A DNA stretch of 64,000 nt from Vagococcus carniphilus. Its GTDB lineage: Bacteria > Bacillota > Bacilli > Lactobacillales > Vagococcaceae. Both the position numbers and the translations under genes were made by a program. Where the stretch lies: NCBI RefSeq assembly GCF_014397115.1, contig NZ_CP060720.1:78001-142000 (forward strand), read 5' to 3'. This document shows, one piece after another, positions 8,310 through 62,086 of the stretch (the first letter of the stretch is position 1; each line of letters opens with the position of its first letter). The notes under the pieces were generated by a model that was given only the letters and a program-made list of their open reading frames with translations, ran no database searches and had not been told where the DNA came from.

Positions 8310-8545
8310 AAAAAGTCCTATAAAAGCTGAATTAGCTTTTATAGGACGTTGATTTTAACGTGGTACCACCTATTTTTATGTAGTTAAAAATACAACTACA
8401 TCTCATCGTCATGATAACGGACTGAATCCGGCTAAAAAAGCATTCTCAGAGCTAAGTTCAAGTTTCTATCTTTATGCATTTTCAGCAACCATGCACTCTC
8501 TAAAAAAGTTTCCACTCTACTACTTCTCGTCATTGTTTTAATTAT
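8310..8545 (-). promoter_or_regulatory. T-box leader of leuS (tRNA-Leu sensing)
   Basis: The minus strand carries the invariant T-box AGGTGGTACCACG at 8359-8371, then a terminator hairpin (8315-8328 with 8334-8347) with a T run. Upstream lie Stem I features: AGTAGTAGAG, a distal-loop-like GGTTGCTGAAAATGC, and GAA-CTT-AGC at 8451-8459. There CTT (8454-8456) is the likely specifier codon, a Leu codon agreeing with the downstream gene. Specifier choice is inference. Confidence 0.92.
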
Positions 8546-24761: not shown

Positions 24762-25949
24762 TTACATACCTAAACTTGTTTTTAATGCTGAGACTTTATC
24801 TAATTTTTCCCATGTAAAATCAGCATCTTCACGGCCAAAGTGACCATACGCTGCTGTTTTTTGATAAATGGGGCGTCTTAAATTAAGCATCTCAATAATT
24901 CCCACTGGTGACAAGTTAAAGTTTTCGCGAATCGCTTCAATTAAGCGACCTTCTGAAACTTTTCCTGTACCAAAGGTTTCAACAGAAATTGAAACAGGTT
25001 GTGCAACACCAATTGCATAAGCTAATTGGACTTCACATTTGTCAGCTAAACCTGCTGCTACAATGTTTTTAGCAATGTATCTAGCGGCATAACTAGCAGA
25101 ACGGTCCACTTTGGTTGCGTCTTTTCCAGAAAAGGCACCTCCACCGTGTCTTGCATAACCACCATATGTATCAACAATAATCTTACGACCTGTTAAACCA
25201 GAATCCCCTTGAGGTCCTCCTATAACAAAGCGTCCTGTTGGATTAATGAAATATTTAGTTTTTTCATCTAGTAATTCACTTGGAATCACTGCTTTAATGA
25301 CTAATTCTTTGATGTCTTCTGTAATCTTATCTAAAGTCACATGCTCATCATGTTGAGTACTCACAACAATGGTATCTACTCTAACAGGTTTTCCTGCTTC
25401 ATCATACTCTACTGTTACTTGTGATTTCGCATCTGGACGTAAATAATCAAGTACTTCATCTTTTCTAAGAGCTGCTAATTTTTCTGTAATACGATGACTT
25501 AAAGCAATCGGTAACGGCATTAATTCTGGCGTTTCATTAATAGCAAAGCCAAACATCAAGCCTTGATCCCCTGCTCCTAAATCTTCAGTATCACGAGCTT
25601 CTTCTCTTGATTCAAGTGAGGCGTCTACCCCTTGAGCAATATCTGGTGATTGTTCATCAATCGCGACCATCACAGCACACGTATCGCCATCAAAACCATA
25701 CTTAGCACGTGTATAGCCAATCCCTTTAATTGTTTCTCGAACCACTTTTTGAATATCCACATAAGCTGTTGTTGTGATTTCTCCAAATACAAGAACAAGT
25801 CCTGTTGTAACTGAAGTTTCACACGCCACACGAGCATATGGATCTTTTTCTAGAATCGCATCTAAGATAGCATCACTAATTTGATCAGCAACCTTATCTG
25901 GATGCCCCTCTGAAACGGATTCTGACGTAAATAATTTTCTTTCTTTCAT
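24762..25949 (-). CDS. metK: S-adenosylmethionine synthetase
   Basis: Makes S-adenosylmethionine from ATP and methionine in the cytosol. Motifs: [19 protein letters not shown] at the N-terminus, [12 protein letters not shown], and [17 protein letters not shown]. At 395 residues it has the usual length. The start has a GGGGGAAT ribosome binding site that is part of an SMK (SAM-III) leader, so translation should fall as SAM rises. Confidence 0.98.
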
Positions 25950-25959
25950 TTTCGGTATT

Positions 25960-26030
25960 CCCCCTATTTGTTTTATCGGTTACAAGGAATCTTTACACAT
26001 AGACGTAAATCCTATCGGGAATCTTGCAAC
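25960..26030 (-). promoter_or_regulatory. SMK box (SAM-III) translational riboswitch of metK
   Basis: On the minus strand GTTGCAAGATTCCCGATAGG begins at 26030, TTCCTTGTAACC closes the outer helix, and GGGGG (complement of 25960-25964) is the Shine-Dalgarno sequence that pairs with an upstream TTCC/TCCC when SAM binds. The order matches the SMK box known before metK in Lactobacillales. A TATACT -10-like box lies just upstream (complement of 26036-26041). Confidence 0.88.
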
Positions 26031-26073
26031 ATTGCTAGTATAACAGATAAAACTTTTTTTACCTACTTAAATA

Positions 26074-56280: not shown

Positions 56281-57912
56281 TTATAAAAATGAAGTTAACC
56301 AATTATTACCACTAATTCCTGTTAAAGACATTGGTTTTTCTGACACGCTGCCACTAACAACTCCATCATTTAATGGAATAAACGAAGCTTTTGGAAAATA
56401 AAATTGACAGCCTTTTTGATAGGCGGAGTCCCCTATAATAATATCATACGATCGTTTTTCTGCTGCAAGTTCCTCAATTGTTGAGAAACCAACTGCTTTA
56501 TCTTGGTAAAAGTATGCTAAATTTTCAGTTGGCAAGTAAGTTCTACTAGTAACTGATTGACACTCAAATTCTAATTGAAGCATCTTCTCTAGTCCTTCAT
56601 TAATAGATGGGCGACCTAGTAAAAGAACGTGTTTATTTTGTAAGGTTCTTTCGATATCCCGTACTTCTTCATCCCTATCGATTAATTGAATATCACAAAA
56701 CGGAGTCAATTGTTCGATACATCTCTCAAATCCTAACCTACCAATTGGTAAATCAACTATATAAGGCATTTGATAATTTTTTTGTAACCACTTAGCTAAG
56801 TCCAATCCTTCTTCACTCACTACCCAATTAACTTGTCCTGCTAGTATGCTAGAGAAAGCATCTCTAAGGTTCCCCTCAATAACATTTAATTCATAGTTAT
56901 TCCATGCTAACTTTTCTTTTAACTCATCAATATTAATAATATTTCCTAAAGTTAGTTTCGTAAAACCAATTAAATTAATCTGATTTTTAGGTGTTCTTTC
57001 TTTTGTTTCATTTTCCAAGAAGTAATTACCAGCATCCATTAGTCCTTTTGAAATACCAATAGCAGCCTCTTCAAATCCTTCTGTTATAAATGGAAGGACA
57101 GAAATATCTTCCATCTTAAGCGATTCTGACAACTCTTCATAATCACCATGAACAAAATGATTTAAAGGAGAGCCCATCAAACAAACATCCTCTTTACCAT
57201 CATGATGCTCACAAATAAAACTAAGAATGTCTGATGTCCCACCAAGGGATAAGTCAATGTCTGAAAAATGCGTATAATAAAAATTAGATTGTTTAGCAAG
57301 TAAAGAATTGTCAGCAAAAGAATCCGTACAACTACCAGGTGTGTAGAGAACTCGTAAACAATTCCAATCCTCAATTAAAGAAGCAACTCCAGCAATATCA
57401 CTCGCTAAAACAGGTAATTTAAAAATTTCTTTCTCAGATTCAACATGTTTTCTTGGCTTTTTGTCCGCCAATATATTGGCTATCTCTTTTATCTCTTCTT
57501 TACTATTATGCTGACATTTAGCTATTGGTCCTCGCCAAATTTGAAAAAAAGGAAGCGAATAAGTTGCTTCCAACTCAAGCACCATCGAATCATAGTCTGT
57601 TTGAATAATATAATCCGAACAACCTGCAAATAAAACAATTCCTTTAATATCTGGTAGTAGCACTGCCTGCTCTACAGTTTTTTCTAACTTACTGTAAATA
57701 TCTCCCGTTAAATAATCTGTCTGATCTAACTGGCATAAAAAGACGTGATCCAAAATATCTAGCTCACCTTCTTGAAAATAAAAAGTACGCAAGCAAGAAG
57801 CTGGACCAATACAGATAATAGAAACATCTTCCAATTCTAATAAACAATCAGTCACACTTTTAGTTTCTTTTCGACAACTAACTGGCATTTTTTTTTGCTT
57901 TAACTCAACCAT
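56281..57912 (-). CDS. Nitrogenase component 1-like protein (NifD/NifK superfamily)
   Basis: 543 residues. Cys13 (in PVSCRK), Cys40 (GPASC) and Cys98 (FAGCSD) have the order and roughly the spacing of the P-cluster ligands of NifD. A later Cys195 lies in TPGSCTDSF. The C-terminal half has the repeated Rossmann-like folds of the family (INLIGFTKLTLGN; MPYIVDLPIG). Only one component-1 gene is present where nitrogenase, DPOR and COR have two, so it may act as a homodimer. The start overlaps the NifH-like stop by 8 bases. The substrate is unknown; the B12 riboswitch suggests corrinoid chemistry (inference). Confidence 0.8.
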   Translation of the reverse strand: MVELKQKKMPVSCRKETKSVTDCLLELEDVSIICIGPASCLRTFYFQEGELDILDHVFLCQLDQTDYLTGDIYSKLEKTVEQAVLLPDIKGIVLFAGCSDYIIQTDYDSMVLELEATYSLPFFQIWRGPIAKCQHNSKEEIKEIANILADKKPRKHVESEKEIFKLPVLASDIAGVASLIEDWNCLRVLYTPGSCTDSFADNSLLAKQSNFYYTHFSDIDLSLGGTSDILSFICEHHDGKEDVCLMGSPLNHFVHGDYEELSESLKMEDISVLPFITEGFEEAAIGISKGLMDAGNYFLENETKERTPKNQINLIGFTKLTLGNIINIDELKEKLAWNNYELNVIEGNLRDAFSSILAGQVNWVVSEEGLDLAKWLQKNYQMPYIVDLPIGRLGFERCIEQLTPFCDIQLIDRDEEVRDIERTLQNKHVLLLGRPSINEGLEKMLQLEFECQSVTSRTYLPTENLAYFYQDKAVGFSTIEELAAEKRSYDIIIGDSAYQKGCQFYFPKASFIPLNDGVVSGSVSEKPMSLTGISGNNWLTSFL

Positions 57913-58735
57913 GTATTAGGCCCTCTTCTTCTACTAATGTTTCTCGCCATTCATACAACTCATCTTCATCAAAGGGTGTGATCATTAAATCTTTTACAGG
58001 TTGTTTAATAGCCTCACAAATTGTTTCAAATTCTTTTGTTGCAAGTGATTCTGGGTATTCTTCGACAACTGTTTTTTGTTGATAATCTGCTCGTTTTAAA
58101 AAGTTTGAATCATGAATAACTCCTGTACATTTTGCATGAACTTTTCCTAAATAATTAGAAACGATTTTTTCATCCATCTCATCTTGATAACGATTTAAGA
58201 TAATACCACCCATCGTCTCACCCGTTTTATCAAAATGAATCAAACTTTTCATAATATTATTGGCTGCATAAAGAGACATAAAATCTGATGAAGAAACTAT
58301 GTAAATTTCTTCTGCATAGGCTTTTCTCATTGGTAATGAAAAACCACCACAAACAACATCACCTAAGACGTCATAAACAATGAAATCCCATTCTTCTTCA
58401 AAAACACCTAAACGTGTCAACTCTTTCATCATAGTTGTAATGCCAATCCCTGCACAGCCAACTCCAGCAGTTGGGCCTCCTGCTTCCACACATTGCGTTC
58501 CATAAACACCATCAAAGACTAAATCTTCTCTTTTAATCTCTCTACCTTTTGCTTTAATTTGTTGTAAAATAGTAGGTATTCTTTTTCCTACCAAAGTTCT
58601 TACTGAATCAGCTTTTGGATCACATCCAATATGTAAAACTCGGTATCCCTGTTTAGCTAATGTTGCTGAAACATTACTTGCTACAGTTGATTTACCAATA
58701 CCACCTTTACCATAAAATGCAATTTTTTTAGTCAT
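57905..58735 (-). CDS. NifH-like iron protein (P-loop reductase)
   Basis: 276 residues. Walker A GKGGIGKST, then GCDPKADS. Both 4Fe-4S Cys are present in NifH-like settings: GVGCAGIGI and GDVVCGGFSLPMRK. In the first, the Arg that follows in most NifH (GCAGRG) is Ile. It is expected to bind ATP and pass electrons to the component-1 protein encoded next. The ATG at 58735 has GGGAGG before it and overlaps the ATPase stop by 8 bases. No other nif genes lie nearby, so nitrogen fixation is not implied. Confidence 0.88.
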   Translation of the reverse strand: MTKKIAFYGKGGIGKSTVASNVSATLAKQGYRVLHIGCDPKADSVRTLVGKRIPTILQQIKAKGREIKREDLVFDGVYGTQCVEAGGPTAGVGCAGIGITTMMKELTRLGVFEEEWDFIVYDVLGDVVCGGFSLPMRKAYAEEIYIVSSSDFMSLYAANNIMKSLIHFDKTGETMGGIILNRYQDEMDEKIVSNYLGKVHAKCTGVIHDSNFLKRADYQQKTVVEEYPESLATKEFETICEAIKQPVKDLMITPFDEDELYEWRETLVEEEGLIHG

Positions 58736-59516
58736 TATTCTTACCTCCCATATACACACAAATTTGATGATTTAACTCTGGTACTTCTTTAAGACTTAAA
58801 TCACATTGGTACAATTCATTTAACATTTTTTCATTAATAACATCTTTAGCTTCTCCAAATGTAAAACGGCCGGATGCCTCCAAAATACCTGTTTTATCAT
58901 CTAAAATTAAAGCATGATCTGGATTATGCGTTGTCATAATGACTGCATAACCTTGTTTTTTTAATTCTTTTATTTTTTCTACTGTTTTATATTGATTGCC
59001 AACATCTAAGTGGGCCGTTGGTTCATCTAATAGAATAATTGAAGGGGTTTGAATAAGTGTTCTTATAATCGCTACTCGTTGCCTTTGTCCACCACTTAAA
59101 TCAGCATAAGAATGATTGGCAAATTGACTTAATCCAAATTCTTCTAACAACTGATCTACTTTTTCATAATCTTCTTTTCTTGGTTGACTAAACATCCCTA
59201 AATAAGGGGCTTTTCCCATTACAACATAGTCTCTCACTGAATAAGAAAAAACAGATAATAATTGCTGTTGAACATATCCCATCTCTTGAGCGACCTCTTT
59301 TGGATTCATTCGATGAATTTCTGCGTCATTAATTTTTACCGTTCCACTAACAGGAGTTAACAGATTGACTAGGCAATTTAACAACGTCGATTTACCTGCT
59401 CCATTTGGTCCTAAAATGACTAAACTTTCACCACTATGAAGGTCAAAATTAACATTAGAAAAGGTAGGAGCTGATTTAGGATAGGCAAAAGATAAATTCT
59501 TTACTTCTAATTTCAC
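58728..59516 (-). CDS. FecE/BtuD-type ABC transporter ATPase
   Basis: 262 residues. Walker A GPNGAGKST, signature DLSGGQRQRVAI, Walker B IILLDEPTAHLD, and a switch His in MTTHNPDH. Pairs with the FecCD-type permease. The start is a GTG overlapping the permease stop by 4 bases, with AAGGAC before it. With the riboswitch upstream, cobalamin or another corrinoid is the likely cargo; heme or siderophore are alternatives. Confidence 0.9.
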   Translation of the reverse strand: MKLEVKNLSFAYPKSAPTFSNVNFDLHSGESLVILGPNGAGKSTLLNCLVNLLTPVSGTVKINDAEIHRMNPKEVAQEMGYVQQQLLSVFSYSVRDYVVMGKAPYLGMFSQPRKEDYEKVDQLLEEFGLSQFANHSYADLSGGQRQRVAIIRTLIQTPSIILLDEPTAHLDVGNQYKTVEKIKELKKQGYAVIMTTHNPDHALILDDKTGILEASGRFTFGEAKDVINEKMLNELYQCDLSLKEVPELNHQICVYMGGKNND

Positions 59517-60535
59517 ACTAATCGCGTCCTTTGCTTTAATAATAATAAGACATAGAATGGAGCTCCTATTAATCCTGTCAAAATACTTAATGGTAATTCT
59601 GCAGAAGTTAAAACTCTTGCTAAAGTATCAACTACAATCATAAAGATGGCACCAAGTAAACAAGCTACTGGGAGTAATCTACGATTATCATCTCCTATAA
59701 TCATTCGTCCTAAATGAGGTATAACTAACCCTACCCAACCAACTGTTCCACTAATTGAGACAGAAGACGCTGTTAAAAGTGTTGCCCCTAGAATAGCCAA
59801 TGTTCTTACGCGAGTCACATTGATTCCAAGTGTTTTTGCCTCTATAACTCCTAATGACAAAATATTAATTTGCCAACTAAGAGCTAATAACAAAACAGTT
59901 GCAAATAAAATCACAGGAAAAATCCTAACTAAGTCTGTCATTGAAACTTTTGCAATACTTCCCATTTGCCAATAAGTGATTTCTGCTAGCTCCGTTTCAG
60001 CATCAGCCATGTATTTAATCATTCCTAAAATTGCTGTCATTAATCCACCTACAATAACACCTGATAAAACTAAAATAATCATCGTATTATTACGAACAAG
60101 TTTAGGAATAAACATTGCTAACCAAACAGCAACTAATCCACCTAAAAAGGCAGTTAATTGAACAAGTTGGCTACCAACACCTAGTAGAATACCTGCTGCT
60201 GCTCCAACACATGCTCCCGCTGAAACACCTAGCATATCAGGAGATACCAAAGGATTTCTAAAAATCCCTTGGTAAACTGCTCCTGACAAAGCTAAACTAC
60301 TACCTATTAAAATAGCAGCTAAAATTCTTGGCAGCCTTAAAGTAAAAATAACACTTTCTTCCATTCCTGAAAGACTCTGATCCAGCATTTTTCCTTTAAT
60401 TAAGAAAACCCGTATAACATCTTGTGGACTAATCCAATAGCGTCCAATGCATAAAGCAAGCAAAGCTGTAACACCCAGTAATAAAGTCATGACTAAAATC
60501 AACCATTTCACATTCCATTTGTTTATGTTGTTCAT
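59513..60535 (-). CDS. FecCD/BtuC-type ABC transporter permease
   Basis: 340 residues with about ten membrane segments. Family stretches: RLPRILAAILIGSSLALSGA, YQGIFRNPLVSPDMLGVSAG and GTVGWVGLVIPHLGRMIIGD. Imports iron-siderophore, heme or cobalamin. A GAGG lies before the ATG. Cotranscribed with the binding protein (13-base gap) and the ATPase (4-base overlap). Confidence 0.92.
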   Translation of the reverse strand: MNNINKWNVKWLILVMTLLLGVTALLALCIGRYWISPQDVIRVFLIKGKMLDQSLSGMEESVIFTLRLPRILAAILIGSSLALSGAVYQGIFRNPLVSPDMLGVSAGACVGAAAGILLGVGSQLVQLTAFLGGLVAVWLAMFIPKLVRNNTMIILVLSGVIVGGLMTAILGMIKYMADAETELAEITYWQMGSIAKVSMTDLVRIFPVILFATVLLLALSWQINILSLGVIEAKTLGINVTRVRTLAILGATLLTASSVSISGTVGWVGLVIPHLGRMIIGDDNRRLLPVACLLGAIFMIVVDTLARVLTSAELPLSILTGLIGAPFYVLLLLKQRTRLV

Positions 60536-60548
60536 GTCTTCTTACCTC

Positions 60549-61655
60549 TTATTTACTTTCTTTATTCGCCTCACGATTTGTTATAAAATCCATATCATCA
60601 GCTGATAAATTGTAATCAAAGAAATCTTTGTAGAATATTTTAACTTCTTTTTCAAAGTCCGCATCAGAGAAAATTTCTGGTTGAATTTTAGATGCCATGT
60701 AACGAACCATTAATGGTGTTTCAACTCCAGCAACATCCCAACGATAGATTCCTTTTGGTGTTTTATAAACTTGTTTTTTCTGAACTGCTGAAATTTTACT
60801 CCAGTCCTTACCTTCCATCTTATTATCATATAAATCACTTGGTTTAGATTCATCAAAATTAGTTAAGAAAATAATATCAGGATTCCATTTATAAATTTGT
60901 TCCATATTTAATTCCACATTACCTTTTCCAACTAAATCATGAGCCACATTTTCGCCACCTGCTAATTCAATGACTGTATCATTAACATACACACTAAAAG
61001 ATTGTAATTGTAAGGTCTCGCCTCTCATAAATAAAACTTTAACTTTATCAGCCTCTTTAACTTTATCTTCTTTAGATAATAAATATTCATGTGCTTCATC
61101 ATAGTTTTTATTAATTTCATCTGAACGTTTTTCTTTTCCTAGTAACTGACCAACAGTTGAAAACCCTGCTTTTAAATTATCAATCGTATCACTGTTAATC
61201 ATAACTGGAGCAATTCCCAATTTTTCAAGTTGCTCTCTTTCTTTTGTTTGACTATCCCATAAAAGAGCTACATCCGGTTTAACATTAGCTATTTCTTCCA
61301 TATTGATACCGCCATTATTATCAATGTAAGACGTATCTATTTCTCCCATCTTAGGTTCCATCTTAGGTAAAATCGAAATATCATAAGCTTGTTTTGTTCC
61401 TTCTCTTGCACCCATAATATGATCTGCAGACCCATCAACAGCATAAACAATAGCTGACCATGGAAGAGGTGTAATGGCCATTCCATTTATTTTTTTAGGA
61501 ACCTCAACCTTGTTTCCAGCAATATCTTCTACTATATGAGTCTCTTCTTTCTTCGTTTCCTTAGTCTTAGTACTATCTTGAGTTGAACCACAACCACCTA
61601 ATAATAGCGCAGTACTTAATGCCATTCCCATGAATAATTTTGTTTTACTTGTCAT
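60549..61655 (-). CDS. Substrate-binding lipoprotein (PF01497 type; cobalamin/metal-chelate class)
   Basis: 368 residues. Signal peptide with lipobox ALLLGGC-G; mature part is the long-helix-backbone binding fold (IVEDIAGNKVEVPKKINGMA; EIANVKPDVALLWDSQTKER; IYKWNPDIIFLTNFDE). The ATG at 61655 has AAAGGAG before it; 14 upstream codons are left out. It is the first gene after the cobalamin-type riboswitch and delivers its ligand to the FecCD permease. Confidence 0.9.
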   Translation of the reverse strand: MTSKTKLFMGMALSTALLLGGCGSTQDSTKTKETKKEETHIVEDIAGNKVEVPKKINGMAITPLPWSAIVYAVDGSADHIMGAREGTKQAYDISILPKMEPKMGEIDTSYIDNNGGINMEEIANVKPDVALLWDSQTKEREQLEKLGIAPVMINSDTIDNLKAGFSTVGQLLGKEKRSDEINKNYDEAHEYLLSKEDKVKEADKVKVLFMRGETLQLQSFSVYVNDTVIELAGGENVAHDLVGKGNVELNMEQIYKWNPDIIFLTNFDESKPSDLYDNKMEGKDWSKISAVQKKQVYKTPKGIYRWDVAGVETPLMVRYMASKIQPEIFSDADFEKEVKIFYKDFFDYNLSADDMDFITNREANKESK

Positions 61656-61685
61656 TAAAAAAACTCCTTTATCTTTTTTTATAAA

Positions 61686-61730
61686 CAAAAAAACCAAGGA
61701 AACCTAATAAACAGTTTCCTTGGTTTTTCT
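61686..61730 (-). terminator. Second terminator in the riboswitch leader
   Basis: 11-bp perfect stem (61693-61703 with 61714-61724) followed by T7 on the minus strand, 30-40 bases before the binding-protein start. It lies downstream of the riboswitch's own terminator, giving tandem stops. Confidence 0.8.
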
Positions 61731-61759
61731 TTACATGAATTAATTAATTAATACACCAT

Positions 61760-61990
61760 AAAAAAACCACCTAATGAATCCGTTAGGTAAGCCTATAAAA
61801 AAAGGTTGATGTATCCTGACTCAAGTTCATCGTAAATAATCTTACTTCCCAGTTTTATCCAGTGTATTAAACGATTACGTACTCCCTCTTACAGTGGCGG
61901 TCACCGTGTTGGTTTTTAACCAACTTCCAATCAACCAATCTTTCAATAGCCTCATTGTAGCACCGATGAGAACCGCTTTCATTAGAGATT
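61760..61990 (-). promoter_or_regulatory. Cobalamin riboswitch with terminator
   Basis: On the minus strand the conserved core reads ACGGTGACCGCCACTGTAAG, then AGGGAG (about 61878-61904), like the CCCGCNACTGT core of cobalamin riboswitches. The B12-box-like GAGTCAGGATACATC lies at about 61812-61826, and GATTGGAAG is upstream. A hairpin ACCTAA/TTAGGT (61769-61788) with T7 follows as expression platform. High cobalamin should stop transcription of the whole downstream operon. Boundaries are approximate; some positions differ from consensus. Confidence 0.83.
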
Positions 61991-62086
61991 GATTAGTATT
62001 TCACTTCACATTATCTTTGATCAACACTTCTCTTAATCATCTTGTTATCTTATCTAATGATCAAATTTTAATCAGATAGTTACACC

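Follow-up and report, generated by a model that had tools for sequence, protein, structure and literature searches.

The stretch of Vagococcus carniphilus DNA analysed here (64,000 nucleotides, contig NZ_CP060720.1 of assembly GCF_014397115.1, positions 78,001 to 142,000; hereafter the window, to which all coordinates refer) carries a minus-strand operon of five genes (56281–61655) that combines an importer of the BtuFCD type with a nitrogenase-like (Nfl) pair, the iron protein NflH and the single-chain component 1 NflD, behind a cobalamin riboswitch. On balance, we favour the interpretation of this locus as a cobalamin-repressed operon for corrinoid acquisition, in which uptake would be coupled to an ATP-driven low-potential reduction of the corrinoid. 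We know of no enzyme of the nitrogenase-like family to which this job has been assigned. The corrinoid link appears to be supported independently by the riboswitches found in front of related operons and by a protein of the CoFeSP type encoded in a sibling operon, L098.

The operon and its leader

The genes follow the order lipoprotein–permease–ATPase–nflH–nflD (Table 1), and the junctions between them consist of a single 13-base gap and overlaps of 4, 8 and 8 bases, as described in an earlier note on this DNA that had been made without database searches. The note had also proposed a cobalamin-type leader, and an Infernal-type check within 61760–62000 indeed returned the RF00174 family, with a match that covers the full model (1–189 of 189) and lies well above the gathering score of 31.5 bits. 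The operon aptamer is one of 10 RF00174 matches in the host genome. The long hairpin between the aptamer and the first gene is U-rich on its 3′ side; a simple terminator scan called no terminator at this hairpin. It is likely the expression platform of the riboswitch, and such an arrangement fits control by transcription attenuation. The lipoprotein start given in the list of open reading frames (TTG at 61697) falls within the hairpin, and the ATG at 61655, with AAAGGAG upstream, appears to be the better start.

Table 1. Features of the nflHD operon and its leader (window coordinates).
Feature	Position	Strand	Evidence	E-value	Score
Cobalamin riboswitch aptamer	61787–61992	-	RF00174	6.7e-13	61.9 bits
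Terminator-like hairpin between aptamer and first start codon	61680–61740	-	fold, against shuffles		-24.2 kcal/mol, z -6.4
Substrate-binding lipoprotein, BtuF/FecB type	60549–61655	-	Peripla_BP_2	2.9e-23	82.9 bits
Permease, BtuC/FecCD type	59513–60535	-	FecCD	9.6e-84	281.5 bits
ABC ATPase, BtuD/FecE type	58728–59516	-	ABC_tran	1.2e-35	123.6 bits
NflH, NifH-like ATP-dependent iron protein	57905–58735	-	Fer4_NifH	6e-82	275.6 bits
NflD, single-chain component 1	56281–57912	-	Oxidored_nitro	2e-19	70.2 bits

The binding protein, permease and ATPase recognized in the earlier note all exceed the gathering scores of their Pfam families. In NCBIfam, the top two models for the permease are both BtuC and both remain below cut-off (208 of 334 and 216 of 461 bits); the ATPase reaches 121 of the 281 bits set for BtuD, and its top model, also below cut-off, is that of a haem-transporter ATPase. 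The closest solved structure to the lipoprotein is 4ovk (E = 2.7e-79), which is labelled merely as a 'periplasmic binding protein'. BtuFCD importers under cobalamin riboswitches have the same combination of a FecCD-type importer and an RF00174 leader, to which the window operon adds the nitrogenase-like pair. A corrinoid is very probably the transported substrate.

NflH and the fused component 1

Both Nfl proteins belong to the nitrogenase-like superfamily, with Pfam scores far above the gathering values of 25 bits (Fer4_NifH) and 28.6 bits (Oxidored_nitro). NflH carries the P-loop GKGGIGKS as well as Cys94 and Cys129, which we take to be the cluster cysteines of NifH, in agreement with the earlier note. 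The description of component 1 in that note as NifD-like, with three cysteines resembling those of the P-cluster, needs to be amended: the three cysteines are there, but the chain is mostly of the K-position type. In NflD, a D-position first domain (residues ∼ 1–150) is fused to a whole K-position subunit (residues ∼ 160–543), with Cys40 and Cys98 in the D-position part and Cys195 in the K-position part. Alignment with NifD and NifK shows that NflD keeps three of the six P-cluster cysteine positions and that the later domains of the D subunit, which hold the ligands of the nitrogenase cofactor, are absent from the chain. Cys40, Cys98 and Cys195 are invariant in all 15 fused proteins. A profile search of solved structures with NflD gave weak matches to BchB (positions 279–469, E = 1.3e-5), to chain A of methylthio-alkane reductase (positions 189–402, E = 3.4e-5) and to NifE (positions 16–121, E = 4e-4, where no single stretch was significant on its own); the closest fold is that of BchB from the tetrapyrrole reductase DPOR.

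Neither protein could be assigned to a characterized family. NflH scored below the NCBIfam cut-offs for CfbC (305 of 402 bits), NifH (294 of 394) and BchL (211 of 345), and NflD reached 40 of the 490 bits set for the BchB equivalog. Nitrogen fixation was rejected because of the missing P-cluster cysteines and D domains, membership in DPOR because of the BchL and BchB cut-offs together with the architecture, and membership in CfbCD because of the CfbC cut-off and the presence of both D-position and K-position parts in the NflD chain. With every NCBIfam equivalog cut-off missed, and with both proteins grouping in trees with other uncharacterized sets, the pair is not placed in any family with a proven non-corrinoid substrate; placement in such a family is what the earlier note would have counted against a corrinoid.

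DPOR, COR and CfbCD are nitrogenase-like tetrapyrrole enzymes that reduce the ring. DPOR (BchL/BchNB, group V) differs from the window system, in which component 1 is a single chain with just the first domain of the D-position subunit. The aligned cluster cysteines of NflD comprise two from the D part and one at the position of the Asp ligand of BchB. CfbCD resembles the window pair in that CfbC is the best NCBIfam model for NflH, in its two-gene layout and, if NflHD acts on a corrinoid, in its tetrapyrrole substrate. However, CfbD is described in the consulted sections of two papers (PMC11423573, PMC12552129) as a homodimer, and as the sole such enzyme without a K partner, in contrast to the D–K fusion in the window. 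The substrates named in the consulted sections of the literature on nitrogenase-like enzymes are pigment precursors, the F430 precursor, methylthio-alkanes and isethionate (PMC11423573, PMC9147875, PMC12552129, PMC12176620, PMC6739815, PMC4285132 and PMC9600662, taken jointly). As far as these sections go, the group IV enzymes Mar and Isr are, like the window pair, nitrogenase-like sets (H, D and K subunits) that work outside nitrogen fixation; the window pair keeps half of the P-cluster cysteine positions.

Distribution and phylogeny of the fused proteins

The nflHD operon is rare. Component 1 had no match at an E-value of 1e-10 among 394 other Lactobacillales genomes, and NflH had none among 13 other genomes of the genus. 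In a sample of the phylum, matches at an E-value of 1e-5 turned up in 20 of 398 genomes, one of them the host. A search for foreign base composition saw none (G+C content of 33.7% in the operon and 33.0% in the window); nevertheless, the set was probably acquired. A single-protein scan of genome contigs produced no relative, whereas its alignment-based repeat produced eight loci. Fused relatives are encoded in Selenomonas, Anaerovibrio, further genomes of their class and Lachnospiraceae.

In a tree of the K parts, which included 11 of the 15 fused proteins, these 11 formed a single clade (support 96/98), the two-subunit sets L038, L136, L137 and L140 formed a second one (98/95), and a third (93/74) comprised 14 further sets. 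In the NflH tree, a branch with support of 97/99 separated 29 rows, including genuine NifH, from the kin of the window protein, with BchL on a very long branch on the side of the latter. The reference sequences in the trees were confined to NifH, NifDK, BchL and BchNB from two plasmid records, short of a sampling of Groups I–VI, and the D and K references failed to separate by subunit; long-branch warnings were raised for reference rows and, in some trees, for the window row. We claim no particular relations to BchB, BchN, BchL, NifD or NifK.

The D-position part has 416 or 424 residues in L136, L137 and L140, 273 in L038 and ∼ 150 in the fused window protein, so that the two-subunit, truncated and fused forms offer a series for studying the shrinkage of component 1. 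L138 and L139 carry the fused component 1 as two separate frames, with the break near model position 279 and other genes in between.

Riboswitches in front of related operons

For the comparison of leaders, a group of 23 loci was compiled from the fused and split sets and the four two-subunit sets. L079 and L187, in which component 1 is incomplete, were included because they resemble L036 and on the evidence of the NflH tree. Nine of these loci (the window, L036, L079, L038, L136, L137, L184, L185 and L187) have a cobalamin riboswitch in front, compared with none directly upstream in 22 other nitrogenase-like loci (L039–L048, L080, L081, L186 and L188–L196). Two of the latter were counted as negative despite a cobalamin riboswitch, which in L043 lies farther off, beyond two genes and a molybdenum-cofactor switch, and in L080 is not upstream. 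The difference gives a Fisher p of 0.0015, and a rough by-hand count per lineage gives 0.0005, both indicative only, as the rows are related and not independent. We left out L071, whose contig starts inside the operon, L103, which repeats L036, and the repeats L099, L101, L102, L104 and L105.

One riboswitch scan scored only 79 of its first-look candidates for 7 of the 10 Lachnospiraceae-family genomes in the comparison set and for several genomes of the group. A second search of the loci, with our own model built from 14 switches, gave the same result. It detected no switch in L186 and L188–L196, in L093–L097 and L153 (which lie outside the 22), or in L098, L134, L135, L138–L140, L037, L072–L074 and L076–L078. 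The model recovered six of the seven own-genome switches that lay in the searched loci and had not been used in building it, one of them partly, and missed that of L054.

L185 and L187 share the window gene order (BtuF–BtuC–BtuD–NflH–NflD), with the switch ∼ 105–120 bases before the first gene. In L184 and L038 the switch directly precedes nflH, and in L136 and L137 a gene for a 366-residue protein, porin-like by eye, stands between the two; the L136 copy matched no family model. Some B12-independent isozymes are known targets of cobalamin riboswitches, and NflHD might instead substitute for a B12-dependent reaction and be switched on when B12 is scarce. This we consider very improbable, given that every locus seen with a riboswitch has importer genes joined to the Nfl genes and that no isozyme of such a kind is known to us.

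A corrinoid domain in a sibling operon

L098, which has the gene order of the window, encodes an extra protein of 233 residues between the ATPase and nflH. This protein scored 43.9 bits against PF03599 (cut-off 24.8), 92 bits against NF003195 (cut-off 306 for the whole protein) and 2.9e-18 against the solved large subunit of CoFeSP, and is predicted to carry the C-terminal corrinoid domain of that subunit, the CO dehydrogenase corrinoid protein. It contains a W-C-S-G-K motif at the position of the cobalt-ligating cysteine of HgcA. Together with the riboswitches before related operons, this protein lends partial support to the guess in the earlier note that an imported corrinoid is reduced or remodelled.

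Proposed function and its alternatives

We propose that, at low intracellular cobalamin, the riboswitch would let transcription proceed past the hairpin, and the three importer proteins would take up a corrinoid. NflH, powered by MgATP and supplied by a low-potential donor, for example ferredoxin, would pass electrons to NflD, in which Cys40, Cys98 and Cys195 may hold one small cluster of the [4Fe-4S] type between the two parts of the chain. This cluster would reduce the imported corrinoid, most likely at the cobalt, which would go to Co(I) or lose its upper ligand, and the product could then be adenosylated for the B12-dependent enzymes of the host. The corrinoid is probably the substrate of the reductase; that the chemistry is centred on cobalt we suggest tentatively.

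Such enzymes appear to be present. The large subunit of a propanediol/glycerol dehydratase exceeds its model cut-off in the host, and frames read by eye near the host riboswitches suggest diol dehydratase operons, ethanolamine ammonia-lyase, an aminomutase, cbi-type synthesis genes and a second importer, one diol dehydratase being the assignment confirmed by a model. A second riboswitch-preceded importer in the same genome (L053) is without the nitrogenase-like pair.

The potential of the Co(II)/Co(I) couple is lower than those of ferredoxin and flavodoxin, which makes ATP-driven electron transfer plausible here, and a nitrogenase-type pump encoded with the importer would meet this potential problem for the newly imported corrinoid. 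Activators of the RACo/RamA type belong to a protein family unrelated to nitrogenase-like proteins, and none of the five window proteins matched that family. These activators would share the job of NflHD, ATP-driven reduction to Co(I); according to the consulted part of PMC6739815, the reduction of Co(II) to Co(I) demands more than ferredoxin or flavodoxin can supply, and the known activators use ATP. It is conceivable, albeit with some doubt on our side, that a nitrogenase-derived enzyme in which one chain joins a D-position domain to a K-position subunit provides a further ATP-driven corrinoid reduction besides RACo/RamA, with a substrate class that would be new for the superfamily. Many nitrogenase-like enzymes have no known function, and here the regulation of one subfamily, together with a corrinoid-binding domain encoded nearby, would point to a specific substrate class. 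A cobalt-containing ring would then join the porphyrin-type rings handled by this superfamily, and some anaerobes would have a route for making imported B12 analogues usable. Corrinoid operons under riboswitch control that contain importers and a CobN gene are described in the consulted part of PMC4285132, and the word 'nitrogenase' is absent from its main text; among the matches listed in the open-licence literature, we recognized no description of the present operon.

Several observations weigh against corrinoid reduction. A riboswitch in front is lacking in 14 of the 23 group loci (L098, L134, L135, L138, L139, L140, L037 and L072–L078), including all eight Selenomonas-type loci (L037 and L072–L078); in L075, a cobalamin riboswitch lies on the opposite strand and faces other genes. 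No switch was found upstream of L098 even with permissive settings, and among the loci compared the corrinoid-domain gene is confined to this one. The lipoprotein falls far short of the BtuF equivalog cut-off (39.7 versus 234 bits). TonB receptors beside L037 and L138 matched no BtuB model and score best, below cut-off, as siderophore receptors. L187 has nflH, yet its component-1 frame comprises 317 residues, possibly as the front half of a split component 1 like those of L138 and L139. Finally, the draft genomes G753, G868 and G861 (all of genus g327, two of them Anaerovibrio), in which assembly errors are possible, have no NflH match, their PF00142 matches being weak (at most 57 bits).

The last three genomes raise the alternative that component 1 serves as a carrier or chaperone of corrinoids with a structural cluster, NflH being an accessory. 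In G753 (Anaerovibrio RM50), the fused gene is intact and keeps all three cysteines with no NifH found, as a carrier would allow. In the other two the gene is broken: the metagenome assembly G868 has an in-frame stop in it, and a deletion in G861 takes part of it along with part of the importer. We read these broken genes as decay after loss of the partner, although the findings would also fit a NifH-independent role. Moreover, nflH and nflD are neighbours in the window, L098, L184, L185, L187, L038, L136 and L137, and we regard a carrier as improbable.

The receptors and importer scores bear on another possibility, that the importer carries a different metal complex (a cobalt chelate, a siderophore or haem) from which NflHD frees the metal by reduction, the switch being there since cobalt feeds B12 synthesis. 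FecCD importers carry all these ligands, the top ATPase and binding-protein models are haem transporters, the TonB receptors are nearest to the siderophore type, and the host has a cbi-type synthesis locus (by eye); related Nfl–importer sets outside the group are without a B12 switch in front, some of them near metal-cofactor-like genes. The corrinoid domain in L098 and the riboswitches before different gene orders argue against it, and we judge it unlikely.

We assign a similarly low probability to ring reduction or reductive metal removal, by which NflHD would recover cobalt or the ring from an imported corrinoid, or from another metallo-tetrapyrrole, instead of activating it. Ring reduction is what the known nitrogenase-like tetrapyrrole enzymes do. 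In addition, each of the eight Selenomonas-type genomes has one NifH-like gene far from the fused gene, which in all four cases examined belongs to a second cluster that also holds two-subunit Nfl or chelatase-like AAA genes; three of these clusters (L094, L095 and L096, but not L093) include a CobN-type chelatase, model-confirmed in one. However, no chelatase gene was seen, in frames read by eye, in or beside the window operon, and a B12 switch more simply suits acquisition than destruction.

Other gene sets and window features

The second clusters of L093–L096 combine magnesium-chelatase-like AAA, NifH-like, two-subunit Nfl, binding-protein and importer genes, and may handle haem or another tetrapyrrole. 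Nfl sets of H, D and K genes stand, by eye, beside hydE/hydF- or hypF/D/E-like genes in L039, L186, L193 and L196 and in L044, L081, L188, L190, L191 and L194; L191 has larB/C/E-like genes as well (by eye). A link of these sets to hydrogenase or nickel-cofactor assembly is possible.

In the host genome, three more cobalamin riboswitches, two of them in tandem, precede genes for two DUF4430 proteins of 1343 and 1723 residues (L049, G000:C1:1664000-1683000), and L054 encodes a small DUF4430 lipoprotein; DUF4430 is a domain known from B12-binding proteins. The window segment 51450–56237 resembles, by eye, an extracellular electron transfer locus, with genes for a lipoprotein that has FMN-binding-like repeats, for an Ndh2-like protein and for prenyl-diphosphate synthases. 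Other RNA elements of the window are a T-box leader (8339–8542, minus strand) and a SAM-III riboswitch (25947–26034, minus strand).

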